Of a stretch of 20,561 nt of DNA, positions 1,354 through 20,561 are shown one piece after another. How positions within the stretch are numbered: position 1 is the stretch's first letter; the number at the start of each line of letters is the position of its first letter. The notes beneath the pieces are model-generated. The model saw only the letters and a program-made list of their open reading frames with translations, was not told the origin of the DNA and did no database searches. This stretch comes from a virus, in the IMG/VR virus record IMGVR_UViG_3300034190_000625, positions 1 to 20,561 of that record. One strand, 5' to 3'. The position numbers and the translations under genes are program-made.

Positions 1354-1376
1354 CTAGCCAATTACAAACCGGCTAG
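1354..1376 (-). terminator. Weak hairpin at the 3' end of the LysM gene
   Basis: CTAGCC (1371-1376 on the minus strand) pairs with GGCTAG (1354-1359), with two possible extra G-U pairs, and spans the stop codon at 1362-1364. A T-rich but interrupted stretch follows about 10 nt later, so it is at best a weak terminator or a 3'-end stabilising hairpin. Confidence 0.35.
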
Positions 1377-3236
1377 TGCTCTAATTCTATCAAACTCTTC
1401 AGTACTGTCGTCTGCAACATATTCTTCGCATGTTTGACGTACACGCTCAATAAACTGTTTTGCAGGGCCTACATACTTGTCACCGTAGTCCTTTTCAACG
1501 CTAGTTAGTACTGCTGTTTCACCTTTTGGAAACTCACCTGTTTCGCGATCAAAGTAGCTTAGGATGAACTCACCTAATGGAGTCTTTTGCTCTTTTGCTT
1601 CTTCTTTGTCTAGTGACATCGATCCGTCTTTGCCTACAGTAACTTCAGTTTCTTTTGGTTCTGAAGAACTTGTCATGTCGCCAAAATCTAACTTGGCTAG
1701 CAACTGTGGGTTTTTAGCTTTGATATATTTGTGTACTAATGGACGTACACACATATCTGAATCTTTTGCTCCAACTTTTTTAAACATATCAGTTAGCATC
1801 GGATCGTCAATAAGTCCGCTTAGACTTTCGATTGCATTCATGCCATCTATGCCTGCTGGAAAATGATCTCCTACTAGTGATTGTAATTTTTTAATTGCTT
1901 GGGCTTGCTCGCCTTCGTCACTACTAAACACTGAGTTACTTTCAATAACATCGTACTTCTTTGTTACTGCGCCAATTGATGATTCTAATTCTGCTTCGTA
2001 TGCTTTAAATCCACCTGGTGGTAATCCTCTAGTTGCACCGTCAGGTCCTGACCCCATAAAGTATGGCATCTTAATAACCATTCCAGGCTGAATCATTGCT
2101 GGATCTGTAATATCAGGATTTTCGTCCATTATTGCTTCAATTGCATCTTTTGGACCATATCCTTGAAAGTTAGCATTTTTAAATCTCTTGTATATACTAA
2201 AAATAGTGTCGCCTTTTTGAACTTTATATGACTCCGCCGGCTGTTCGCCTTCAGTTTGAAAATCTTCTGGATTAATATCTTGTGTTTCACTAACAAGATT
2301 GTAGATATAAGGAAATACATCTTGTAATTCTTCTTGGAATGATTTGATAGTAAGTGCTTCAACCCAGCTTGCTTTTACTTCTTCTGGAACTTCTGATAGT
2401 TCGCGAGTTTCAAAATTCTCTACTACATCTTTGTAATATGATTCGCGCTGCAATTGCATTACTTCTTTTTTAATTTTTTCTATACGCTCGTTAACACGAT
2501 CAGAAACAGGACCCATTGCTTCTGCCATAACACCCGAACGTCCCATATAAGTTTTAAACTTACGTAGCTTGCCTAGCTCTTGGCTCATTTCAATTACATG
2601 TGTACCAAATGAATCATGTGGCTTACCACCATTTGCAATATGACGACCTAATGCTCTTGCACCATTCAAATGCTTAACAGGATATTTAAAGCGTTCGCCT
2701 TCGGCAGTTTCAATAAAGATGCTTTCAATATGCATCGAACGTCCGCCTGCGATTTCTGTATTAATAGGTTTACTATGTGTAACCATTAACTTTGCGCCAC
2801 CTAAATCTTGATAGCTTTTACGGGCAGAGCCGTATAATTTTGATTCACTCATTTGGGTCTCTCCGGAGTTTTGTGCTAGAAACTGATAATCTCTTTTATC
2901 TAAATTAGACTTTGTGATATCTCTCGGTTCAAAATTAAGTCTACGTTTCTTACTAAATGTTCTAAGTTCTTTAAGGAAGCTATACCAATCTTGTTTTACT
3001 TCATCGGATTCTTCACTTACAAATTCTGTGCTATAATAAACTACAAGTCCAGTTTCAGTTAAACTTATGCTAACTTGTCCTAGGGCTTCTGTTTGTGATT
3101 TATATTCAAAATCAATAAAACGAGCCAACTGAGGATCACTAGTCACTTTTCCGTCTTCGTCGCCCATAGTTACACTTTGGTAACGGCTACGTATTTTATT
3201 AAATAGGTCTTCTGCTATTAAGTTTAAGTTTATCAT
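1362..3236 (-). CDS. LysM-domain protein of unknown function (putative virion protein)
   Basis: I choose the ATG at 3236 (624 residues, MINLNLIAEDLF). The frame stays open to an ATG at 3296, but that would overlap gp17 by about 50 bp and lie upstream of the late-type box. Residues about 336-393 form a LysM module (YKVQKGDTIFSIYKRF ... IQPGMVIKMPY) with an enlarged middle; LysM binds peptidoglycan or other GlcNAc polymers. The N-terminal 300 residues are charged and mostly helical, with a central block rich in conserved-looking residues (MHIESIFIETAEGERFKYP). The C-terminal 70 residues (TPLGEFILSYFDRETGEFP, then an ETAVLTSVEKDYG segment) look like a separate domain. I recall similar long proteins from uncultured marine myoviruses but no assigned function. 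No signal peptide, membrane segment or lytic catalytic motif is evident, so a virion component or cell-wall-binding role is inference only. It directly follows gp17. Confidence 0.75.
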   Translation of the reverse strand: MINLNLIAEDLFNKIRSRYQSVTMGDEDGKVTSDPQLARFIDFEYKSQTEALGQVSISLTETGLVVYYSTEFVSEESDEVKQDWYSFLKELRTFSKKRRLNFEPRDITKSNLDKRDYQFLAQNSGETQMSESKLYGSARKSYQDLGGAKLMVTHSKPINTEIAGGRSMHIESIFIETAEGERFKYPVKHLNGARALGRHIANGGKPHDSFGTHVIEMSQELGKLRKFKTYMGRSGVMAEAMGPVSDRVNERIEKIKKEVMQLQRESYYKDVVENFETRELSEVPEEVKASWVEALTIKSFQEELQDVFPYIYNLVSETQDINPEDFQTEGEQPAESYKVQKGDTIFSIYKRFKNANFQGYGPKDAIEAIMDENPDITDPAMIQPGMVIKMPYFMGSGPDGATRGLPPGGFKAYEAELESSIGAVTKKYDVIESNSVFSSDEGEQAQAIKKLQSLVGDHFPAGIDGMNAIESLSGLIDDPMLTDMFKKVGAKDSDMCVRPLVHKYIKAKNPQLLAKLDFGDMTSSSEPKETEVTVGKDGSMSLDKEEAKEQKTPLGEFILSYFDRETGEFPKGETAVLTSVEKDYGDKYVGPAKQFIERVRQTCEEYVADDSTEEFDRIRALAGL

Positions 3237-3243
3237 AGTAAAG

Positions 3244-3251
3244 TATTTATC
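3244..3251 (-). promoter_or_regulatory. T4-late-type promoter box GATAAATA, LysM gene
   Basis: GATAAATA on the minus strand resembles the T4 late box TATAAATA. The TAA within it is the stop codon of gp17. If it occupies -13 to -6 as in T4, +1 falls at 3238, only 2 nt before the ATG at 3236, giving an almost leaderless message. No good Shine-Dalgarno site precedes that ATG. Confidence 0.6.
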
Positions 3252-4830
3252 CAAAACTGCTACTGATGAAGATCGGCATTGGTGCTTCGTAATCATCGTC
3301 TTGCTCTGCTTGTGTGAAAGTATTATATATTCTAGGATCCCAGTCTTTTAATACTGCCATCATTCTTAGTGCTAATAGTGTAGCACTTATCAAGTCGTCT
3401 GTCATTCCTGACTTTGCTTGGAAACTACTGCCTGTGGCAATGTATCCTTTTAGTTCTGACAGTAGAGGTTTAGACTTGATTGTCATCTTGCCCCCTTCTA
3501 CCATTGTTTTTAATCTGCTACACGCTGTAATCTTAGTGCCGTGTGTAGTGTTAAATCCTTTGCGGAACTTTCTTACATGGCCTTTGCGCATTGGCTCACT
3601 TACAAACAGCCCTGGAATATTTTCTTCACCGAAGTCGTTGATAACAATCAAACATGCTTCTCCGATACCGTTGTTTTCAACACTCCAATATATGTTATTA
3701 GCATTACCAGTTTCTTGTGCAATGTACTTACAAATATCTGCAAGTACACGTATTTGCCCTGGTATTGCAGTTTGATTGTGTTGCCACTCTGCTACTTGTA
3801 TATAAGTAGGCAATTCAAACACTTGTATAGCTGCGTTGTCTCCACCTGTACCCATACTAGGATCAAGTGCTACTGCATATGTGTATTGACTTGTAGGCTT
3901 CTTATACCAACGTGTTTGCCCCATATTAAGTACAGGAGCCGCGCCTTCTAATCCAGCAAGTGTAAGACTGTTAATAAGTGTTTCATCAAATACTAGGAAT
4001 TCGCAACCGTATTCACGACGGAACTTCTCTTCGCCAATACGACCAATTTCATCTTGCTTCCATTTTTCATCACGGTCTGGGTGTTCGTTCCAGTGTGCAA
4101 TAAAGCTATGAAATCCGTTAGTGCCTAGCTCTTGTTCATTACCATGTTCATCAAATTTGTTCTCTGCTTGTTTCCAAATAGTTGCAAAGGTATCTTCATC
4201 TGAGTTTGGTGTGCTTGTAATAATAGCTCTACCACCTGTTGCTAGTGTAGGTGATATTGATGTCCAAAACTCTTCAGCAATGTTTGGTTGCACAAATGCA
4301 AACTCGTCACAGTATAGTAACGAGATTGACATACCCCGTCCTGTGTTGCCTGTTGTTGTTTGCGACACAATACGTGAGCCGTTTTCAAATTCAATGCTGC
4401 CCTTGTTATACGATGTAACACCTGCTCTAATATGGTCTGGACAAGTTTCGTATACATAACGTATGCGTGACATAATTTCTTGCGCACCTGTGTATTTGTG
4501 TGCAGCAATAAGGCACGTTTGATCCGGAGTAAACATTGCGTACCAAGCTAGGTAAATTGCTGCACACGTTGTTTTTCCTGTTTGCCTAGGCATCATGTTA
4601 ATATTAAAGCGATAGCTGTGATAGCTGTGCATTAATCGTAACTGATATTCATACGGATCAAATAATAGTTTGCCCTTTGTAGGATGCTGAATAAATGCAA
4701 ACTTACGTGCAAAGTATAGATAGCCCGTGTCGGGGTCCATGCAGGCAAGTAAGTCTGCAACTTGTTCTTCTGTATATGTTTCTTTTCTATTCGCCTTCTT
4801 AATTAAGACGCCGTCTAATGATGCTGCCAT
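3247..4830 (-). CDS. 17: Terminase large subunit gp17 (packaging ATPase/nuclease)
   Basis: This 527-residue protein is the packaging motor. The N-terminal ATPase has Walker A PRQTGKTT (81-88), Walker B LLYCDEF (171-177, D175/E176) and the STPN coupling motif (206-209). The C-terminal RNase-H-fold nuclease has candidate metal ligands D323 (ALDPS), E385 (VENNG) and D478/D479 (MTDDL), the same order as the three acidic residues of T4 gp17. It cuts the concatemer and pumps DNA through the portal. It is shorter than T4 gp17 (610 residues), mainly at the termini. It is separated from the gp16 gene by two unknown genes. It is expressed as its own unit behind a terminator and a late-type box, and its TAA stop lies inside the box of the next gene. 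All key residues are present, so it looks functional. Confidence 0.96.
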   Translation of the reverse strand: MAASLDGVLIKKANRKETYTEEQVADLLACMDPDTGYLYFARKFAFIQHPTKGKLLFDPYEYQLRLMHSYHSYRFNINMMPRQTGKTTCAAIYLAWYAMFTPDQTCLIAAHKYTGAQEIMSRIRYVYETCPDHIRAGVTSYNKGSIEFENGSRIVSQTTTGNTGRGMSISLLYCDEFAFVQPNIAEEFWTSISPTLATGGRAIITSTPNSDEDTFATIWKQAENKFDEHGNEQELGTNGFHSFIAHWNEHPDRDEKWKQDEIGRIGEEKFRREYGCEFLVFDETLINSLTLAGLEGAAPVLNMGQTRWYKKPTSQYTYAVALDPSMGTGGDNAAIQVFELPTYIQVAEWQHNQTAIPGQIRVLADICKYIAQETGNANNIYWSVENNGIGEACLIVINDFGEENIPGLFVSEPMRKGHVRKFRKGFNTTHGTKITACSRLKTMVEGGKMTIKSKPLLSELKGYIATGSSFQAKSGMTDDLISATLLALRMMAVLKDWDPRIYNTFTQAEQDDDYEAPMPIFISSSFG

Positions 4831-9493: not shown

Positions 9494-12400
9494 TTATCCA
9501 AGACTTGCAATCTCACCGGTGTTTTTCAAACGTAGTGGAATGTAGATAAATTCAACTGCTTTGACTGGTTCAATAGCAATGTCTACATAAAGTTGATTAC
9601 GGTCAATTCTGCTTGGAGTGTTATTAGACTCGTCACATACAACTAAGAAGTCATATAGCGCACGTTGTCCAACTAGCTCAAGCATTAAGCTCTCAACTTG
9701 TTGTTTGATTTCATCGCGTGTAATCTTATCGTTCGGTTCAAAGATATAAGGTTTAGCAAGAGCATTTAATTGTCTACGTAAGTACACAACTAGTCTTGAT
9801 ACGTTAATTCTATCCAATGCACTAGCACCTCTTGCACGAGTTTTTTGACCCATTGCAATAACACCACTGCCTGTAATAAATGTAATTGGGTTAACATTTA
9901 CGTTATATAGAACGTTACGTTGACCTTCATTTAATGCAACTGTTTTAAATTCGCCTTCTGCACTTACATATCCAACTGCACTTGCATTAGATACTCCGCC
10001 TCGTCTTGTTCCTGCTGGTGCAAACCAGGGGAAGCTAACTTGGTCACTTAGTGCAATAGTGCGCATCATCATGTGTGACGCTGGAACAACAATGTTGTTT
10101 CCTGCATTATCACTTGTAAAGCCACATGGGTAATAAATGCCTAAGTATTCATCTGAAGTAACTAGACCTTCGTCATTGTCTTCAAATGCACCTGCAACAT
10201 TCAAGCCCCAGTTGTTAAGTTCTGTGCCGCTTGAGTTTAATCTAAACGGTGTATCACCTAACACAAATGCTGTCAATCCGCGATCAACGTTTAGTGTTAC
10301 CATTTCGCCGATTAGTTCCGGATAACCTGGGCAAGCCATTAAGTTAAAGTTTAGACCTTCTTCGTCACGTATACGCTCGTTACTATTAACTAGAGCCTGT
10401 AGCTCACGTACAACAACCTTGCGCTGCGCTTTGCGACCAAATGCGCCTGAACCATCTTCGTTGTTTGTAGAAACTGTTACCCAACGATGTGGATAGTAGT
10501 TGCTCATTGATGCGTCAGCATCTGAACCACGTTGGTTTTCTTCAATCAACGGAACATAGTTACGAATAAATTTCTTAACGTTAAAACCACTTCTACGTGT
10601 ATTCCATAGCAACATACCACGTGGGTAAAGTGCTGGATCCGGAGCATCGTGATCTAAGTAGTTGCTAGTTAGTAATTCATCAATAGTTGCTGATGCAAGA
10701 CCATCTGGTGTTCCACCTGTTGTTCCCCAACGTGCATCTGCAAACAAGATACCATCTTCACTTGTTTGATCAGTACCGTCAAGCAACTCCCAAGTACCTG
10801 CTAAGTTATAGCGATACATTAGCGGATAATTTTCTAAATCTGCTGTACTAACCCATAGGTCGCCGTATTTTAGTGCAGACGTTCCGTCTTGTCTTCTGTA
10901 CGGTTGCGTAGCACTAACAATAACTCCTGAGAAGTCAGTAAATTGATTTTTATAGCCAACCCAGTTTGTGCCGTCGTGTACCATAACATCAATTTCATCA
11001 ACAATGCTATTATACCATAGTGCGCCATCTGCTGTTAAGCTAGTTGGATTATCAGCACTTGATTTTGGTGCTAGGAATTTCCATCCACTTGCTACAAAGT
11101 TATGTACTGTGTCGCCACCTGGTGCGCCGTATAAGTTTGCAGTTCCGATTCCTGAACTTACATATGCACTAAAGCCTGCTGTTGAGAACGGTACATTGGT
11201 ACCATCGCCAATACGGAAGTCACCGCCTGCTGCGTGTGTAATAACTACTCTGTTTTGACTATCAATAGTTGCAGTTACATAAACTAAGCCAATACCATTG
11301 ATTGCTGATGCAAAGCGCTCAGCGTTAGTAGTTGCGTCAGCTGAGCCAACAAAGCTACCGTTCTTTGTAGTTAACATTTTGCTGTTTGGCATAGTTTCAC
11401 TAATTACAAAATCATACGCTGTACCATTTGTAAATGTTGTTCCTGCAATAGGAGCTGATGCAATGCTTACTGCACCTAAAACTTCTCTACGGAAGATTTT
11501 AAATGTTGCTAGTGAAGGAGTTGTATCTGCGCCAAATGTTTCGCCTGCGTTAGACTGAACATATAGTGTACCTACACCAATGTTTGCTCCGCCTGCTGCT
11601 CTATCTAGATTGTAAATTGCTTCTTGGTTATTTGCATAAACTGGTGCGCCTTGGTCATCCCAAAGTTTTGTTTCGCCGTTCCATGCTTTAACACGCCATT
11701 TAGCACCACCGTTTGGATCAGTTGTTTTAACCCAAACACTACCACTTGGACGATTAAACGCATCAATTGTTTTAAATTCTGGAACAGTTGTGTGTGCAGA
11801 AAGTTGTAGTCTTGGTGGGTAATAAGTACCTGTTGCAACACCAATTGGACTATCGGATGCTTGTGCAGCTACAAGTGTACCACCTAGTGTGATTGCATTT
11901 GAGTTGTCTGCTTCAGTGCCTGCACCGTCAATTGAATTGCTTGCATAAATTTCTAATTTACCGTTTACAATAGCAGCTGACATAACGCTCGATTTGCCTG
12001 CTGTAGTAAGTTCGGAATTAATAGATGACACTAAGGAAGTAAGATCCTGTGCTCCTGTGCCGCCAACTGTTGCTGTAATAGACAAGTTAGTAGCATTAAT
12101 TGTTAAAGTGTCGCCACCTTGAATTGTTGGAGTTGATTTTGTGCCTGCTATAGTTGGCCATGCCATAGCCCATGCATTTGAACCTACTTCAACCCAAGTA
12201 CCGTTGTTTGTTTTTGCTTTGTACCATAAGCGTTTGATCGGTGCTGTAGTAGCTGCTGTTACTGCATAGTCGCCAACTTTACCTACACTCTGTACTGGAG
12301 CAGTTCCGTCTAGCTGTGATTCATTTGTAATAACAATTGGAGATACAGTTTTGAACTTTTGTCCGCCTGCTACTGCTGATGCGTTATTCCATTCAAACAC

Positions 12401-12835
12401 ACCAAAACTAGTTGCCGACGTGTCAAACCAATATGTTCCATCTTCTGGATCAGCTGCTGGCTCTTCTGAAGTAGCAGTTAACTCTGTTAGGTTAACATCT
12501 GCACGTACTACGTATGCTCTGTTAGCTACACCTAAAAAGCTGTATGCTGCTTGTAGACCATATTCGTTTTGCTCGCCGCCGTGTACTGCTGCGCCGCTTG
12601 CATCTGTGTAAAATGTAGGGTCACCAAAAGTTTCTGCAAGTTCTCTTTGACTAGTAATAGTATATACTTCGCCTGCGTTTGCTTTCAATGTTCCTGCTGC
12701 AATTCCTGTACTGGAACTGTTTGTTTTGTCTTGTCCAGACGCAACAATAATAAGTGGGGTAGTACCTGGTTCAGCTGGTGTGTAAAAACTTTCGTCTATT
12801 ACACTGACCTGTACTCCTGGTGATTCTAAAGCCAT
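9494..12835 (-). CDS. 18: Tail sheath protein gp18, enlarged
   Basis: The 1113-residue product is a contractile sheath protein. The N-terminus (MALESPGVQVSVIDESFYT, then TPLIIVASGQ) and C-terminal third (RWVTVSTNNEDGSGAFG; RINVSRLVVYLRRQLNALA; VEFIYIPLRLKNTGEIASLG) carry the conserved sheath core that binds neighbours and the gp19 tube. T4 gp18 has 659 residues, so about 450 extra residues lie in the middle (about 120-750). This insert holds repeated short modules of the form G-x-[LVY]-W followed some 15-25 residues later by another Trp (near 132-149, 363-392, 602-625, 656-682). They probably form surface-exposed protrusions. An AGGAG site and a CTAAATA box precede the ATG. The gene is divergent from the HNH gene, and only its late box is seen as a promoter. 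Confidence 0.94.
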   Translation of the reverse strand: MALESPGVQVSVIDESFYTPAEPGTTPLIIVASGQDKTNSSSTGIAAGTLKANAGEVYTITSQRELAETFGDPTFYTDASGAAVHGGEQNEYGLQAAYSFLGVANRAYVVRADVNLTELTATSEEPAADPEDGTYWFDTSATSFGVFEWNNASAVAGGQKFKTVSPIVITNESQLDGTAPVQSVGKVGDYAVTAATTAPIKRLWYKAKTNNGTWVEVGSNAWAMAWPTIAGTKSTPTIQGGDTLTINATNLSITATVGGTGAQDLTSLVSSINSELTTAGKSSVMSAAIVNGKLEIYASNSIDGAGTEADNSNAITLGGTLVAAQASDSPIGVATGTYYPPRLQLSAHTTVPEFKTIDAFNRPSGSVWVKTTDPNGGAKWRVKAWNGETKLWDDQGAPVYANNQEAIYNLDRAAGGANIGVGTLYVQSNAGETFGADTTPSLATFKIFRREVLGAVSIASAPIAGTTFTNGTAYDFVISETMPNSKMLTTKNGSFVGSADATTNAERFASAINGIGLVYVTATIDSQNRVVITHAAGGDFRIGDGTNVPFSTAGFSAYVSSGIGTANLYGAPGGDTVHNFVASGWKFLAPKSSADNPTSLTADGALWYNSIVDEIDVMVHDGTNWVGYKNQFTDFSGVIVSATQPYRRQDGTSALKYGDLWVSTADLENYPLMYRYNLAGTWELLDGTDQTSEDGILFADARWGTTGGTPDGLASATIDELLTSNYLDHDAPDPALYPRGMLLWNTRRSGFNVKKFIRNYVPLIEENQRGSDADASMSNYYPHRWVTVSTNNEDGSGAFGRKAQRKVVVRELQALVNSNERIRDEEGLNFNLMACPGYPELIGEMVTLNVDRGLTAFVLGDTPFRLNSSGTELNNWGLNVAGAFEDNDEGLVTSDEYLGIYYPCGFTSDNAGNNIVVPASHMMMRTIALSDQVSFPWFAPAGTRRGGVSNASAVGYVSAEGEFKTVALNEGQRNVLYNVNVNPITFITGSGVIAMGQKTRARGASALDRINVSRLVVYLRRQLNALAKPYIFEPNDKITRDEIKQQVESLMLELVGQRALYDFLVVCDESNNTPSRIDRNQLYVDIAIEPVKAVEFIYIPLRLKNTGEIASLG

Positions 12836-13831: not shown

Positions 13832-14006
13832 GAACTTTTTGATAGGCTTCTTCAAAACCTTCTTCGTGGAATGATGCTTCGTGGTTGCCCCAAAGTCTTT
13901 TAAAATAACCATCGTAACAAGCATACACTGTTTCTTCGGTTATGTTAAGATGCCCCTTTACCATCCAAAAAAGTCTATAAGCGTCTTTATGAATGGGCTT
14001 ACTCAT
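13815..14006 (-). CDS. Small protein of unknown function, 63 aa
   Basis: MSKPIHKDAYRLFWMVKGHL is followed by acidic helices (ITEETVYACYDGYF; HEEGFEEAYQKVLDKQL). It is aromatic-rich and soluble, and I do not recognise it. It overlaps the neck-protein stop codon by one nucleotide (TAATG) and so is translationally coupled to it. Its 3' end carries the -35 box of the downstream kinase promoter, which constrains its last codons. Confidence 0.62.
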   Translation of the reverse strand: MSKPIHKDAYRLFWMVKGHLNITEETVYACYDGYFKRLWGNHEASFHEEGFEEAYQKVLDKQL

Positions 14007-14770
14007 TATCCTATAATAAATCCATAGCCACTGCCGCCTGCGATGTTCATTTTAACTTCTTCTTCAAGTTTTTCCATCTCTGCTTGAGCTTCATTCTTTA
14101 GTGCATCGCCATTAAGTGTTGATCCACCTTGTGGTCCTGCGATAGTAGCAAATTTACTACGTGCTTCGCCTAACATCATTTTACATGCTGCTACAGTATA
14201 GTCTTTAATCCATTGTCCCGAATACGTATCAGTCATTATTACAATATCAGGCTTGTAGTTATAGGTGTATAATAGGACTTCTTCTATATCTGATCTTGGA
14301 CGTTGTAGTATTGTTAGCTGCTTTGAACTACTGTTAAATTTAAACTCAATAAAACTACCAAACATTCTGCCTACAAGTTCTTGATAACCTGAAAACAATT
14401 CGTATGTTAATAGGCCGCCGATTGAACTAGAACTCATTAAGTATGTATTAGTGTATGCCAAGTTAAACGGATCGAAAGAACTTCCGCCATTGCTGCCGCT
14501 TGATCTAGATCCAATACTACGTCTGTATATTTTACGTACTTCAATAACTTCGTTAGGTAGAGTATAAGTATTTTGATCTTCTATCAATGTTAAAAAACTA
14601 TAGCTTTCTTCAACAGAGTGATCTGATCGTTGTCTAAACCTAGTAAGAGCTTTACTAAGTGCAATTTCATAATGTCTTGGATCAAGTTCGACATCGACCA
14701 TGCCGCCGCCTAACATAGCGTCTACATAATCAAATATTTTACTTTTTTCTTCTGTTAAATTATTAGCCAT
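14006..14770 (-). CDS. 13: Neck protein, gp13-like
   Basis: The 254-residue protein has the sequence pattern that I associate with gp13 neck proteins of marine T4-like phages: KIFDYVDAMLGGGMVDVELD (11-30), ALSKALTRFRQRSDHSVEES (37-56), QNTYTLPNEVIEVRKIYRRSI (70-90), AACKMMLGEARSKF and the C-terminal helix KNEAQAEMEKLEEEVKMNI. T4 gp13 (309 residues) with gp14 forms the collar that seals the packaged head and receives the tail. A Ser/Gly-rich patch at 91-101 is probably a loop. No gp14 is next to it. The start has a GGACTAAT site. It lies 10 bp behind the fibre-associated gene and shows no promoter of its own, so it is co-transcribed. gp13 is the likeliest name; another connector protein cannot be excluded. 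Confidence 0.68.
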   Translation of the reverse strand: MANNLTEEKSKIFDYVDAMLGGGMVDVELDPRHYEIALSKALTRFRQRSDHSVEESYSFLTLIEDQNTYTLPNEVIEVRKIYRRSIGSRSSGSNGGSSFDPFNLAYTNTYLMSSSSIGGLLTYELFSGYQELVGRMFGSFIEFKFNSSSKQLTILQRPRSDIEEVLLYTYNYKPDIVIMTDTYSGQWIKDYTVAACKMMLGEARSKFATIAGPQGGSTLNGDALKNEAQAEMEKLEEEVKMNIAGGSGYGFIIG

Positions 14771-14780
14771 TAATTAGTCC

Positions 14781-16295
14781 TTATACAGCGTAGGTTGCTT
14801 GTGTAATATCTACGTGAATTGTTGCCAGTAAGTTTGTTCTGCCTGTAGTAACACCGTTTTCAATTACAGGTATTGCTTTTAGCACACGCTGGTCCATTCC
14901 GTTCAATGCACTTGCGCCGTTTGCATCTGTCATAGCGTTATCATCAACAACTATTAAGTATTTACTCGAAGGTGAAATATGCGGATGTGTTGCATTTTCA
15001 GGCGTAGTAGTATAACCTGCGCCAACTTCTATGTACCCAACACATAACGTCCAGTGTCCTACTGATGATTCAAAATCGTCTACGCCGCCAACATAATAAT
15101 CTTCATTGAATGGCCCAGTAGCTGCTGGCGCTCCCCAACTGTAAAACTTAACCGGTAAACTCTTACACATACTTGTGCCACCGACTGTTTCAGGTGGTAG
15201 TTTATTAGCAGGGGTAGTTTTTTCAGTAATGTTCCAGTGTCTCCAACATACAAAGAATGGACGGTTGTTAGCAATATCATCACGAACAATTTGGAAGTTA
15301 ACATCAAAGTTTTCATTTAGTGTTGCTGCGTAACCTTCGTTAGCTAATGGATCAGGAAACACATCTTGAGTATTATAGCTAACTGATGTTGCAGTAGCGT
15401 TCAATGCGCCTTCTCCAATTTGATTGTTAAAAGCACGATATCCAAACAAGAAATTGTTAATAGTAGTGCCGCTTGTTACACCCACTGGAAGTGCGCCATT
15501 ATCTGCTGCGCCAGTGCCATTAGTTCCAAAATACCATCCAAAGTCAGTAACAGGACTTGCTAATTGGGTTGCATAAGTTACAGTATTAGCTGGGCGAGCT
15601 CCGTCATATTGATGATCGTGCCATTGCGGATCACCTTGTGCATATATTCCAGAACTTGGATAATCTGCGCCATCACCAAATGTTTGCACTCCGTACTTGT
15701 TTTCAATAAATCCTAAGTGATTTGCTGCGGCAGTAGGAGCACTCCATCCATATACAGATTCTTGCGCAATTGTTCCGTCATAGTTAAACGGATTGTCCCA
15801 CATTGCTGGTTGAAAATCACATGTTACTAATTGAACATTTTTAGTTGCTAGTTCTGCTTCTGTTGGGCGCAATCTTCTAAAATCTAAAGATGCAACATTT
15901 GTACTACTGTCCCATTTACTTGTTTCGCCGTTATACACAAACACTGTTTCTAGATTATCATCTGAAAGTAACAATGTTTTAGGATCTCCAAGGAACTGAT
16001 TAACATATGTTGCATCAGGTATTTGTGCTGTAGTTCTAAAATCTATAGGATGTTGCGCTCTAATACTTACAGCATTTTGAGTATGCCCGTATCCTTTTAC
16101 AATAACTCTTATTACATCGCCATCTGCTGGAGTAGTCGGAAAGTTAATTGCAAATCCTGGTCTAAAATCTGCTAAACCATCCGAAGCAACTCTACTTAGA
16201 GCCTCTACAATGACTGTGTCGCCTGCACCAGCATTGTAGCCTTCTTCAACTACTTTTGGTTTGGCTGCTTCGTTTCTTATTTCTGCTAAAAACAT
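14781..16295 (-). CDS. Fibre-associated protein with C39/papain-like fold and Cys-to-Ser change
   Basis: The 504-residue product has two parts. Residues about 24-128 (FAINFPTTPADGDVIRVIVKG ... VFVYNGETSKWD) resemble the C-terminal domain of the fibre gene just upstream. Residues about 155-465 show the order of a C39-like (papain-fold) peptidase. The nucleophile helix region is YGWSAPTAAANHLG (182-195), where families of this type carry Cys and here Ser185 stands. It is followed by a strand, VRDDIANNRPFFVCWRHW (337-354). The His strand is VGHWTLCVGY (H414) and the acidic position is YLIVVDDN (D451/D452). The Ser codon is AGT, one base from Cys TGT. The domain could be an inactive, carbohydrate- or peptide-binding relic, or a serine variant. 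The start is 1 nt after the fibre stop with GGAG within that gene, so the two are coupled. A virion or fibre-tip location is inferred from context. Confidence 0.8.
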   Translation of the reverse strand: MFLAEIRNEAAKPKVVEEGYNAGAGDTVIVEALSRVASDGLADFRPGFAINFPTTPADGDVIRVIVKGYGHTQNAVSIRAQHPIDFRTTAQIPDATYVNQFLGDPKTLLLSDDNLETVFVYNGETSKWDSSTNVASLDFRRLRPTEAELATKNVQLVTCDFQPAMWDNPFNYDGTIAQESVYGWSAPTAAANHLGFIENKYGVQTFGDGADYPSSGIYAQGDPQWHDHQYDGARPANTVTYATQLASPVTDFGWYFGTNGTGAADNGALPVGVTSGTTINNFLFGYRAFNNQIGEGALNATATSVSYNTQDVFPDPLANEGYAATLNENFDVNFQIVRDDIANNRPFFVCWRHWNITEKTTPANKLPPETVGGTSMCKSLPVKFYSWGAPAATGPFNEDYYVGGVDDFESSVGHWTLCVGYIEVGAGYTTTPENATHPHISPSSKYLIVVDDNAMTDANGASALNGMDQRVLKAIPVIENGVTTGRTNLLATIHVDITQATYAV

Positions 16296-16296
16296 A

Positions 16297-19200
16297 TTAG
16301 TTCTCCGTTAATATCCAACCTTGCTCTGCATTGTAATAAACTAATCCAAATGCAGAACGATCAGTTTGGATAATCAAATCGTCTGCTCTACCCTGGATAT
16401 TATGTCCATTTCTTGCAATAGTAATGTTAAACTGGCTAGCTGTGCCAAATCCGTCTATTACTCTTATTTCATCGCCTAGTTCTGCAACAGTAGGAAGCGT
16501 AATAGTTACTCCACCTGTTACACTAGTATCTACAATATAGTGACTGCCTGCTTCAGCAGTTACACTAGTTATCAGTTCAGTCCAACCTCTAGATAGTTTT
16601 CCTGTTTTTAATACGCCAGTTGTTACGTTAGCGTTATTTACATCACCTACTACAGTGCCGTCAATGTCGTTAATAATTTGTGTACTGTCTAGAGCAAATA
16701 CACTACCTGTAATATCGCCTCTAAAGTCATTGGAAACAATAGTACCTGCATATATATTTCCGTATCTAAAATCTGCACTACCAATGTCGCCGTCTAAATC
16801 AAACTCTGGTAATACGTTTACGCCAGTTGCTGTTTGTACACTGCCTTGAACAACTACTGTTCCAGCAAGATTAGTGTCACCGTCGACATAAAATAAGCTG
16901 CTAGCACCAACAGTAAGTCTAATTCCATCTGTTACTGTAGCTGGAGTAATATATACATCCGAACCTTGTTTTAATATACTAATATCGTCGTTGTTAATAG
17001 TACCTTTGATTTCACCAGTTAGACCGTCTACCATTACACTCGAATCGTCTGCAAATACAGAACCTTTCAAGTCACCTGCAATAGTAGCAAATGTACTACC
17101 ATTAGTCCATTGTGTTCCGTCCCATTGTAATACGTCACCAGTTGCCGGGGCACCTAGCTGTACACCACTTAGATCATCGATAGTTTTATTGCCAAACTCT
17201 GTATTAAATCTTGCATTTGTAAAGTAGTAGTTTGCAATGCCTTCTGCTAAATCATCTGATGTTTTTAAACTAAAGCTATCGTCAAATCGTTGTTCTGTCC
17301 AGTACAAGTTAGTTGTACCTTCTTCAATATCACTTGATAGTAGGTTAGTTAAACGATAATCAAAATCTTGGTTAAAGTAGCTAGTTTGATAATATCTATT
17401 TGAACTACCTTCTGCTAAACTGTCAGTTGATATTGCTAACAAGTTTGCAGTAAAGTTAGCGTCGCCTCTTGCTTCAGTAAAGTATAGATTATTATCACCT
17501 TCTGGAACTCCATCAGTGTTTAATCCGCCACCTACTCTAACAAGTTGATTCCATGTTCCGCTAACAGCACTATAAACTTCGCCAGTTGCTTGTACTGTTG
17601 CAATCATACCTGCATATGTAGTTGCATCTGGTAAGTCAACTAATGTTGCATAGTAACTTCTAATTTTGTTAGTTGCACTAGTCAACTCAATAGTTGCACT
17701 TGGACTTGTAATACTTCCGTTTAAGTTACCTTCAAATGTTGCTGCTACAAAAGTATCTGCGCCGACTGACCATTTATCAACAGCTTCGTCCCAAACGAGT
17801 TGTTTAACTCCTTCATCGCCACGCCTTACTTCGATACCTGCATTTATTGTAGGAGCACCAGTTGTAACATTTGAATTAAGAGTCACAATGTTATCTTCGA
17901 CTAGTAACTGCGTTGTGTCAATAGTTGTAGTTGTACCTTGAACTGTTAAGTTACCAGTAAGTGTTAAGTTAAGGAATGTTGGACTTGCATTAGTTGCAAT
18001 ATCTTGGCCCAGTGCAATAACACCAGTTGTATTATTATATGTTACACCTGTGCCGCCACTTAGTGCTGCTCTTGCTCTTGCATCTGTAAAGTACTTGTTA
18101 GTTGCGCCAGCGCCCGATTCTGATATTTGATCAGTAATTGTAGGAATAGCAGGTTTGTTTACAAAGTTGTCCCAATCAAGGAAGTAGCTAGGGAGCTGAC
18201 CGTTTAGGTTTTGTACTTCGCCGAACTCGTTAATAATAGTATCATCAAATTCAGTTTTAATTATTGCATTATTTAAGCCACCAAGGATAATAGTACCTTG
18301 CAAGTCAGACTCTAATGTTCCTGTTGAAGTAAATGTTCCATTAACTGTTAAATTATTAAACGTTGATGTGTTTGTACTTGTAACATCGCCACTTAGTGTA
18401 CCATTAACACTACCGTTTAAACTACCAGTAAAGAAGCCTTCAAAGCTCAAGTTTTGGCTTGGACTTGTTGGATCTACTTTAACTGTCATAGGCAATGTGC
18501 TATAGAATGTTAATCCGCCCTGTTCAATGCGCGAAGCACCTAGTGTTGCTAATGGGCGACCTAAAATGTATCCGCCTGTGCCAAAGCTAAGGATTGAACT
18601 ATTAGCAATATTAATTGTTGTGCCAGTTGATCCGCCTAGGTTGTCTGTACGTACACTATCGTTGACTACATCGCCTGTGATTAAATTAGATACTGCATCA
18701 ACAAGTACTGTTGAGTCATCACCAAACACACTACCTTTGACATCACTGCCCCATATTGCTGAAGAAATATCTGTAAACTCAACTGCTGTTGCATCTGCAT
18801 TTACAGCAAGAACTTTGTTATTAAAGCCTAAGAAGCTACTTGGAGTATCTGTTAATCCTAAGAATGTACTCGAGCCGCCTGTGCCGCCACCAGTAGTTGC
18901 AATTGATAGTGTATTAGAAACATCATCATATGTTAATGCAATTCCGTCACCGGCTTGTATTAATGCAGCTACGCGGTCATCAACACGTTCGTCTGTGTAC
19001 CATTGATTAAGTGAGCCTTCTGATATATCATCAGTTGACTTAGTACTAAACATTACATTCCAGTCTGCTTGTGTAAACACATCAAGTACATTAATTGTAC
19101 CTGACATTCCTGGATAGTACTGTGAATTATAGTACAGTGTATCAGGCGCATTCATTGGTACTGTAAATGTAATAGTACCTGTTTCTGATCCGTTGCCAGT

Positions 19201-20561
19201 AACGCCATCATTATATGCGTTTGCAGTCCCTGTAGAATTTACAGTCTTAATGAACAATGGACTACCAGTTGCATCCATTGAGAATGTGTATGTTTGTCCT
19301 CTTGATAGATATATTTCTGGATCTAATGCTGCTGTTGTGCCGCCACCGTTGAATACGTAGTTATTTGTTCCATCAGCTGTTACTGCAAAGTTAATAACTC
19401 CGTCTACACTTGCTACATCTCCTGGTATAAAGTTTGAACCATCCCATACCAGTGCTTGTCCGTTAGTAGGTGCTGCTGTAGTTGTATCTACATCTGCTAG
19501 TGCATCAATACTTGATGTGCTTAAATCACTAGCAACACTTCCGGGTACAAAGTTAGATCCGTTCCATACAAGTGCTTGGCCATTAGTAGGTGCCGCTGTA
19601 GTTGTATCTACGTCTGCTAATGCATCAATACTTGTAGCACTAATATCAGCTGCAACACTGCCCGGAACAAAATCGTTTCCGTCCCATACAAGTGCTTGGC
19701 CATTAGTAGGTGCTGCTGTTGTGATATCTACATCATTAAGTGCGCCTACACTAAAAGAGCCTATACTTGTAATATAACCGGTACTGTTAGTAAAGCTAAT
19801 AACACCAGTAACCTGATTAAAGTCAATATCTCCGGTGCCGCTAATATCTGTTAGTGCAATGCCTACGCCGCCATCTGATGTTAAGTCAGCTGCTGGTGCC
19901 CATACAGCTCCGTCCCATTTTAATACTTGACCTGTTGTAGGCGCAACTGCACTTACATCTGCTAAGTCACCTACGTTTGTAGGAATGGTAGGAGCACCTG
20001 TTAAGTCTGCATATGCGCCACTTGTTGCTACAGTTGCTAATGTTGGTGTGCCTGTTAAGTCTGCATATGCTCCACTTGTTGCTACAGTTGCTAAACTTGC
20101 TGTTGTTGCATATGTTGATAAATCAGGAGGTGTTAAAGTAAACAGTCCTAGTGTATTATTATATGTTAGTGTACCAGTGCCGCTGGCAGCAACAGTATTA
20201 GCTGATAAGTCAGTTAATGCAATACCGCCTGCACTATCGTCAGTTCCTACTATCCAAGCAGTTCCGCTATACTTTAATACACTACCTGATACTGCACCAG
20301 CTGTATCTACATCTGATAAGTCGTTAATGCTTGCTGTTGAAATGTCTGTAGACGATACTGTTCCCGGTACAAAGTTTGATCCGTCCCACACAAGTGCTTC
20401 ACCATTGTTAGGAGCAGTTGTAGTTGTATCTACATCACTTAATGCGTTAATGCTAGTTGACCCAATATCCGCTGCAACACTTCCAGGTACCCAAGCGGCG
20501 CCATTCCACACAAGTGCTTGCCCACTGCTAGGATTAGCTACACTTACGTTTGTTAAATCAC
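16297..20561 (-). CDS. Long repetitive tail-fibre-like protein, 3' part (start outside window)
   Basis: The reading frame is open to the window edge. A GTG near 20511 is in frame, but the upstream codons still encode the same repeat, so the true N-terminus lies outside. At least 1420 residues are visible, rich in Ala, Thr, Ser, Asp, Gly and Val. Parts: about eight copies of an LxDVDTxxAAPTNGQALVW-type repeat (mostly 40 residues) from 20561 to about 19420, with one more near 17100-17190; a cupredoxin-like domain at about 19398-19084 lacking copper ligands; about six NxYFTDAR-type repeats between about 19010 and 17200; about three GSVF-D-DST repeats; and a C-terminal domain (GVTITLPTVAELGDEIRVID ... 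GWILTEN) typical of phage fibres. No intramolecular chaperone domain is recognised. Host-recognition fibre is the likely role. The gene is exceptionally long and contains exact DNA repeats. Confidence 0.85.
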   Translation of the reverse strand, partial: DLTNVSVANPSSGQALVWNGAAWVPGSVAADIGSTSINALSDVDTTTTAPNNGEALVWDGSNFVPGTVSSTDISTASINDLSDVDTAGAVSGSVLKYSGTAWIVGTDDSAGGIALTDLSANTVAASGTGTLTYNNTLGLFTLTPPDLSTYATTASLATVATSGAYADLTGTPTLATVATSGAYADLTGAPTIPTNVGDLADVSAVAPTTGQVLKWDGAVWAPAADLTSDGGVGIALTDISGTGDIDFNQVTGVISFTNSTGYITSIGSFSVGALNDVDITTAAPTNGQALVWDGNDFVPGSVAADISATSIDALADVDTTTAAPTNGQALVWNGSNFVPGSVASDLSTSSIDALADVDTTTAAPTNGQALVWDGSNFIPGDVASVDGVINFAVTADGTNNYVFNGGGTTAALDPEIYLSRGQTYTFSMDATGSPLFIKTVNSTGTANAYNDGVTGNGSETGTITFTVPMNAPDTLYYNSQYYPGMSGTINVLDVFTQADWNVMFSTKSTDDISEGSLNQWYTDERVDDRVAALIQAGDGIALTYDDVSNTLSIATTGGGTGGSSTFLGLTDTPSSFLGFNNKVLAVNADATAVEFTDISSAIWGSDVKGSVFGDDSTVLVDAVSNLITGDVVNDSVRTDNLGGSTGTTINIANSSILSFGTGGYILGRPLATLGASRIEQGGLTFYSTLPMTVKVDPTSPSQNLSFEGFFTGSLNGSVNGTLSGDVTSTNTSTFNNLTVNGTFTSTGTLESDLQGTIILGGLNNAIIKTEFDDTIINEFGEVQNLNGQLPSYFLDWDNFVNKPAIPTITDQISESGAGATNKYFTDARARAALSGGTGVTYNNTTGVIALGQDIATNASPTFLNLTLTGNLTVQGTTTTIDTTQLLVEDNIVTLNSNVTTGAPTINAGIEVRRGDEGVKQLVWDEAVDKWSVGADTFVAATFEGNLNGSITSPSATIELTSATNKIRSYYATLVDLPDATTYAGMIATVQATGEVYSAVSGTWNQLVRVGGGLNTDGVPEGDNNLYFTEARGDANFTANLLAISTDSLAEGSSNRYYQTSYFNQDFDYRLTNLLSSDIEEGTTNLYWTEQRFDDSFSLKTSDDLAEGIANYYFTNARFNTEFGNKTIDDLSGVQLGAPATGDVLQWDGTQWTNGSTFATIAGDLKGSVFADDSSVMVDGLTGEIKGTINNDDISILKQGSDVYITPATVTDGIRLTVGASSLFYVDGDTNLAGTVVVQGSVQTATGVNVLPEFDLDGDIGSADFRYGNIYAGTIVSNDFRGDITGSVFALDSTQIINDIDGTVVGDVNNANVTTGVLKTGKLSRGWTELITSVTAEAGSHYIVDTSVTGGVTITLPTVAELGDEIRVIDGFGTASQFNITIARNGHNIQGRADDLIIQTDRSAFGLVYYNAEQGWILTEN
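19084..19398 (-). other. Cupredoxin-like domain in the fibre, copper ligands lost
   Basis: The translated segment has the layout of phage cupredoxin-like domains: IYLSRGQTYTFSMDATGSP, then GVTGNGSETGTITFTVPMNA, then LYYNSQYYPGMSGTINV. The His of a GHP motif is replaced (GSP), and a C...H...M ligand set reads S...Y...M, leaving only Met. The fold is probably kept as a structural or binding module. Confidence 0.6.
19421..19740 (-). repeat. 120-bp tandem repeats in the fibre gene (three units)
   Basis: Three units with a period of exactly 120 bp (40 codons) begin near 19421, 19541 and 19661; the segment AGTGCTTG recurs at 19451, 19571 and 19691. The encoded peptides are nearly identical (DVDTTTAAPTNGQALVW). 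The high DNA identity suggests recent duplication or gene conversion. Confidence 0.88.
19997..20104 (-). repeat. 54-bp tandem repeat in the fibre gene (two units)
   Basis: Units 19997-20050 and 20051-20104 are nearly identical and encode LATVATSGAYADLTGTPT and LATVATSGAYADLTGAPT-like 18-residue repeats (unit phase arbitrary). This is a short perfect-frame duplication. Confidence 0.85.
20361..20561 (-). repeat. Further copies of the 120-bp fibre repeat, cut by window edge
   Basis: CAAGTGCTT recurs at 20390 and 20510, again with a 120-bp period, and the surrounding sequence aligns with the array at 19421-19740. The array continues beyond the right edge. Confidence 0.8.

Follow-up and report, generated by a model that had tools for sequence, protein, structure and literature searches.

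The window analysed here is the whole 20,561-nucleotide stretch of the IMG/VR virus record IMGVR_UViG_3300034190_000625; based on PHROG matches it encodes, among others, a terminase large subunit, tail tube proteins, a tail sheath and an ssDNA-binding protein. The gene under study, P0001 (14781..16295, minus strand), encodes a protein of 504 aa that appears to join an N-terminal fibre-type domain to a C-terminal C39-like domain with Ser at the position of the catalytic Cys. It is preceded by a giant fibre gene (16297..20559, minus strand), which has PHROG tail fibre and baseplate wedge-fibre connector matches and extends off the window at its 5' end, and is followed downstream by the gene of a head-tail adaptor of the neck, Ad2 (14006..14770, minus strand; PHROG 211, E 5e-34). 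The tail sheath (9494-12835, minus strand) is 1113 aa long, while its best PHROG profile measures 915 (about 200 shorter) and phrog_23 496, less than half. A 644-aa ORF at 1362-3296 (minus strand) contains a stretch (YKVQKGDTIFSIYKRF...) that resembles a LysM repeat.

The N-terminal domain of P0001 covers residues 1-151 (15843..16295, minus strand) and the C39-like domain residues 152-504 plus the stop codon (14781..15842, minus strand). The interval 14901-15833 singled out in an earlier note, made from the sequence alone, corresponds to residues 155-465 of the ORF, whose coding strand is minus. That note had read four ordered motifs as the Cys helix, core strand, His strand and Asp/Asn strand of C39/papain-like peptidases, and the ORF translation places all four where it had put them: YGWSAPTAAANHLG starts at residue 182, DDIANNRPFFVCW at residue 339, GHWTLCVGY at residue 413 and YLIVVDDN at residue 446. 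The corresponding features, all on the minus strand, are a nucleophile-helix equivalent (residues 182-197, YGWSAPTAAANHLGFI; 15705..15752), a core helix and strand (residues 321-353, ending in RPFFVCWRH; 15237..15335), a His strand (residues 413-422, GHWTLCVGYI; 15030..15059) and an Asp strand (residues 446-453; 14937..14960). The candidate catalytic residues are encoded by AGT (S185, 15741-15743), CAC (H414, 15054-15056) and GAT (D451, 14943-14945; D451 and D452 together, 14940-14945). When ORFs longer than 250 aa in the loci then compared were scanned with a loose expression for the ordered motifs, none outside the P0001 family matched; in L022 and L023, two of the family members, the first part of the expression fell on another Ser. 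The motif order thus seems to go beyond chance, and the profile test described below supports it, with S185 on the catalytic Cys column.

Relatives of P0001 were found in IMG/VR scans on 14 contigs, two of which are cut inside the gene. Nine distinct full-length members, including the window protein, make up the family alignment (A6), and the other eight share 61-92% identity with the window protein. Named phages gave no match to P0001 (tblastn, E up to 10; records very near the window may be missing from this search) or to the family member of L106 (E up to 1), plasmids yielded no relative (tblastn, E up to 1), and neither did a scan of genome contigs. The family profile also had no match in the stretches around the adaptor genes of PA5oct, Atu_ph07, Phosso and Munch. 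Among the best 80 of 596 stretches carrying Ad2, many of the 80 being short fragments, six have the P0001 gene, namely those six whose Ad2 is closest. The source is a marine myophage with jumbo-phage relatives; that it is itself a jumbo phage is read from the terminase, since the nearest named phages by this protein are jumbo phages such as PA5oct (~54% identity).

P0001 is closely tied to the giant fibre, as the earlier note had proposed. A single nucleotide separates the fibre stop from the P0001 ATG in the window, the gap is 1-4 nt in all eight related loci in which the fibre end is present, and the order fibre, P0001, Ad2 recurs in 10 of 10 loci checked (nine contigs, some near-identical). 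The proposed joining of a fibre-type domain to the peptidase-like domain is also borne out, in that hhalign aligns residues 19-87 of the N-terminal domain with the C-terminal domain of the neighbouring giant fibre (score 32.9, E 7e-5), a match as good being reached by none of 200 shuffles (best, 21.8). From this gene context and N-terminal similarity, P0001 would be expected to reside in the virion. One could also picture P0001 as a factor for assembly or fibre folding that binds the fibre C terminus during maturation, either staying out of the virion or pairing only transiently, with the peptidase fold serving as a chaperone-like clamp. Fibre chaperone genes often directly follow the fibre gene, as P0001 does after one base, and the N-terminal domain resembles the fibre end that such a factor would engage; 504 aa with a fibre-type domain nevertheless seems large for a chaperone, and we consider this role improbable.

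Local divergence was compared in four pairs of related loci. The window and L019 are mostly 97-100% identical at the nucleotide level between 4.2 and 14.7 kb (in 300-nt bins, two of which are at 0.94 and 0.967), with hot spots of divergence at 14901-16000 and 16800-17400. Identity drops to 76.7% at 15300-15599, which corresponds to residues 233-332 between the nucleophile and the core strand, and the second dip lies in the fibre gene. The hot spot over the P0001 gene is mild in L022/L107 and absent in L023/L105, which has dips in the fibre gene and downstream; L107/L106 is diverged throughout, which would hide a hot spot. As the hot spot over the C39-like domain is clear in one of the four pairs and mild or absent elsewhere, the uneven pattern suggests, and does not establish, exchange in the P0001 region. 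L023 and L105, otherwise close, also fall to identities of 0.53-0.85 downstream of Ad2, in a kinase gene region 2.25-3.15 kb after the gene start.

Routine searches were silent on the C-terminal domain. P0001 matched no family in the Pfam or PHROG scans, and PDB sequence searches gave only weak matches (E of 0.1 or more). In the HMM search against the C39 family that had been put forward as a check, neither the window nor any of the nine family members reached the gathering threshold of PF13529, and at E up to 10 Pfam returned only a weak, unrelated ResIII match (best E 0.21) in two of the nine. Because Pfam and PHROG gave no answer, we built a neutral reference of bacterial Peptidase_C39_2 domains, picked by the Pfam model PF13529 and not by P0001 motifs, in which the domain was located in 72 of 76 loci. 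Residues 152-504 matched this set with a score of 36.1 (hhalign probability 67.5%, pairwise E 5e-5). Of 74 unrelated phage families derived by clustering the loci under comparison, the highest-scoring reached 24.7, and none of 200 column shuffles equalled the domain score (best, 20.6).

The match to the PF13529 set consists of three colinear pieces: the nucleophile helix, the core strand and the His strand. Neither the core piece (residues 320-356) nor the His piece (residues 356-504) was equalled by any of 150 shuffles. The same holds for a 33-column helix piece, which was chosen with the hypothesis in mind; the whole Cys half (residues 152-320) gives the same helix alignment, yet 8 of 150 shuffles scored equally high. 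S185 falls on the catalytic Cys column (gapped in 14 of the 72 reference rows; 57 of the remaining 58 have C), and P187 on the Pro of CGP. H414 lies in a G-H-[WYF] strand, as the catalytic His of PF13529 does, and every one of the 70 ungapped reference rows has H in the His column. The C-terminal 353 residues are thus well supported, at the level of sequence profiles, as a divergent C39-like (papain-clan) domain with Ser in place of the catalytic Cys, in agreement with what the earlier note had claimed on both counts.

Other reference sets gave lower scores. A bacterial C39 set selected by CGPTALAMV (n = 63) scored 22.4. Viral C39 proteins were fetched via the G-H-W pattern of the P0001 family, so their His match is built in; after removal of the G-H-W part the viral set scored 21.0, with 3 of 300 shuffles as high and 2 of the 74 families higher. 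One further profile comparison with viral proteins was discarded because truncated P0001 family members had contaminated the reference. The viral set, drawn from IMG/VR contigs, is genuine C39: the PF13529 cut-off is exceeded by all six candidates scanned, of which two also have a phage lysozyme domain, and the catalytic Cys is present in all 44 sequences kept. Fusions of a phage lysozyme domain with a Peptidase_C39_2 domain that contains Cys occur in the viral proteins at L132:1014-2234 and L159:617-4270. In MAFFT alignments with the viral set, the R-P, H353 and G-H-W columns align and S185 lies off the Cys column. The register of the Asp strand to the catalytic Asp is uncertain: across five MAFFT settings residue 451 is on the Asp column in one, residue 452 in one and neither in three, and a further alignment places residue 452 there.

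The structure predictions that the earlier note had called for gave low-confidence models. With the family rows only (4), AlphaFold2 produced a useless model (pLDDT 31.3, pTM 0.26), and among the 50 Foldseek matches listed of 501 none was papain-like; CUB and other beta domains made up most of the list (best E 0.0094). An alignment of nine family and 14 viral C39 rows gave a model that is again of low confidence (pLDDT 37.9, pTM 0.54), with a helix at 186-201 directly after S185, though the input alignment had A190 under the Cys, and strands at 347-353, 413-423 and 445-450. Papain-like chains were its top weak PDB matches in Foldseek (best E 0.24), a BFVD search was likewise weak (best E 0.13), and the VIA Z values of 7.0 to a T6SS effector domain and 6.5 to staphopain compare with the best values of 7-8 usual for models that lack a clear match. 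The presence of C39 rows in its alignment makes the support from this model weak and partly circular. If the resemblance to C39 were superficial and the domain had another fold, then the lone ResIII matches in Pfam, the family-only model with no papain fold among the matches listed and the position of S185 off the Cys column in MAFFT would all be understandable; the colinear match to the neutral set with S185 on the Cys column speaks against this, and we think it quite unlikely that the fold is a different one.

Aligning the homologues at position 185, another of the suggested checks, shows Ser in all nine distinct members, encoded by AGT or AGC in every case and never by TCN. H414, D451, E179, C350 and H353 are likewise invariant (9/9), and residue 452 is D or E. 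Two other candidate nucleophiles were rejected: residue 190 is not conserved (Cys in five members, Ala in two, Leu in two), and C350 belongs to the core strand, away from the nucleophile position in the alignment. C350 (15246-15248), near the invariant H353, is the only Cys invariant in all nine members. The oxyanion Gln is absent from its usual place, with the invariant E179 at -6 and Q178 at -7 in seven of nine members; in the PF13529 reference set, 30 rows have Gln at -5 and 9 rows have it at -6. The C39-like domain is under purifying selection (dN/dS 0.07-0.25 in five pairs, with dS >1 in four of the five).

These data bear on the possibility, left open by the earlier note, of an active serine variant, one with S185, H414 and D451 as a functional Ser-His-Asp site on the C39 scaffold, acting either to cleave a host surface protein or to process the fibre. 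Full conservation of the three residues and the purifying selection would be expected of such an enzyme; since 138 of the 353 domain columns are invariant among the nine members, however, the three invariant triad residues say little for or against catalysis. SERA5, a papain-family protein with Ser for Cys, was reported to be chymotrypsin-like in vitro, but that source also calls its activity weak and debated, and gives testin and silicatein as lacking proteolytic activity (PMC3265493). With the oxyanion Gln absent from its usual place as well, we regard an active serine site as unlikely on balance.

The neighbourhood of fibre genes in related phages offers a further argument for this alternative. 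Three of 23 related records have Peptidase_S8 subtilase ORFs beside fibre-type ORFs (L044:3747-5381, L052:2443-4398 and L092:3030-4640), and none of the three carries the P0001 gene; eight of the 23 carry the P0001 gene and no subtilase, and 12 have neither, all of these records being fragments. The L044 subtilase has relatives in 42 named records, mostly Synechococcus phages along with two Agrobacterium phage records, and some of these relatives are annotated as subtilisin-like serine protease. Among the cyanophage matches listed, a baseplate wedge or tail pin feature lies beneath the match in three rows, from two phages. Together these observations suggest a protease theme among the related phages. 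A serine-nucleophile enzyme on a C39 scaffold, carried on the phage fibres and trimming a host surface protein or the fibre, would, if true, fill the role that subtilases may have in related phages; we hold this to be rather unlikely. Separately, the C-termini of three fibre-type ORFs in related records (L052:4424-6157, L092:4644-6263 and L027:3-1637) contain the letters G-H-P-F ... C-x-S-H-x-x-M, which we take to resemble the ligand set of type 1 copper (cupredoxin) sites; the window fibre is without these letters in its similar stretch.

We favour, at about an even chance of being right, the reading of P0001 as a fibre-associated pseudo-peptidase whose C39 scaffold is used for binding. The N-terminal domain, related to the C terminus of the giant fibre, would probably dock the protein to the fibre or to the neck/baseplate region, the C39-like domain would no longer cut peptides, and its substrate cleft and insert may bind a protein or a peptide, displayed either by the host surface or by the fibre itself. 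C39-like domains with Tyr, Leu or Asn for Cys bind substrate. Receptor-type use is what we infer from this arrangement. Three points favour a loss of proteolytic activity: the oxyanion Gln is missing from its usual place, C39-like domains lacking the Cys are described as non-proteolytic (PMC8277102), and the papain-family proteins with Ser for Cys covered by PMC3265493 are inactive or disputed. If this reading is right, all nine members of a family tied to the fibre apparatus have retained a peptidase scaffold with Ser for Cys, and an enzyme fold may have been put to use in attachment. The presence of a different protease class in the fibre region of three related records makes the idea of fibres accompanied by protein-directed enzymes testable.

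Our literature search on phage pseudo-peptidases and C39/papain-like tail proteins found no such protein described in titles or the opening of abstracts, which is not proof of absence, and several known systems are available for comparison. Peptidase_C39_2 (PF13529) and P0001 share the order of helix, R-P core strand and G-H-W strand, followed by a putative Asp strand, whereas P0001 differs in its Ser for Cys, its lack of an oxyanion Gln at the usual place and its position below Pfam detection; measured against L120, a viral reference, P0001 is longer by 93 residues from nucleophile to core strand and by 49 from core strand to His. Peptidase_S8 subtilases are like P0001 in being a peptidase-type gene in the fibre region, but belong to a separate family (PF00082). 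Jumbo-phage NlpC/P60 papain-like peptidases, to which P0001 has no Pfam match, are sometimes tail-associated and said to cut peptidoglycan (PMC7824862). Papain-family proteins with Ser at the Cys position include SERA proteins of the SERA5 type, testin and silicatein (PMC2878606, PMC3265493); unlike P0001, they are eukaryotic and differ in subfamily and biology. The C39-like domains (CLD) of HlyB-type transporters, as described in PMC8277102, keep the C39 architecture with Cys replaced by Tyr, Leu or Asn and have no proteolytic activity; in contrast to P0001, the CLD is a domain of an ABC transporter and shows no Ser replacement in the cases described there.
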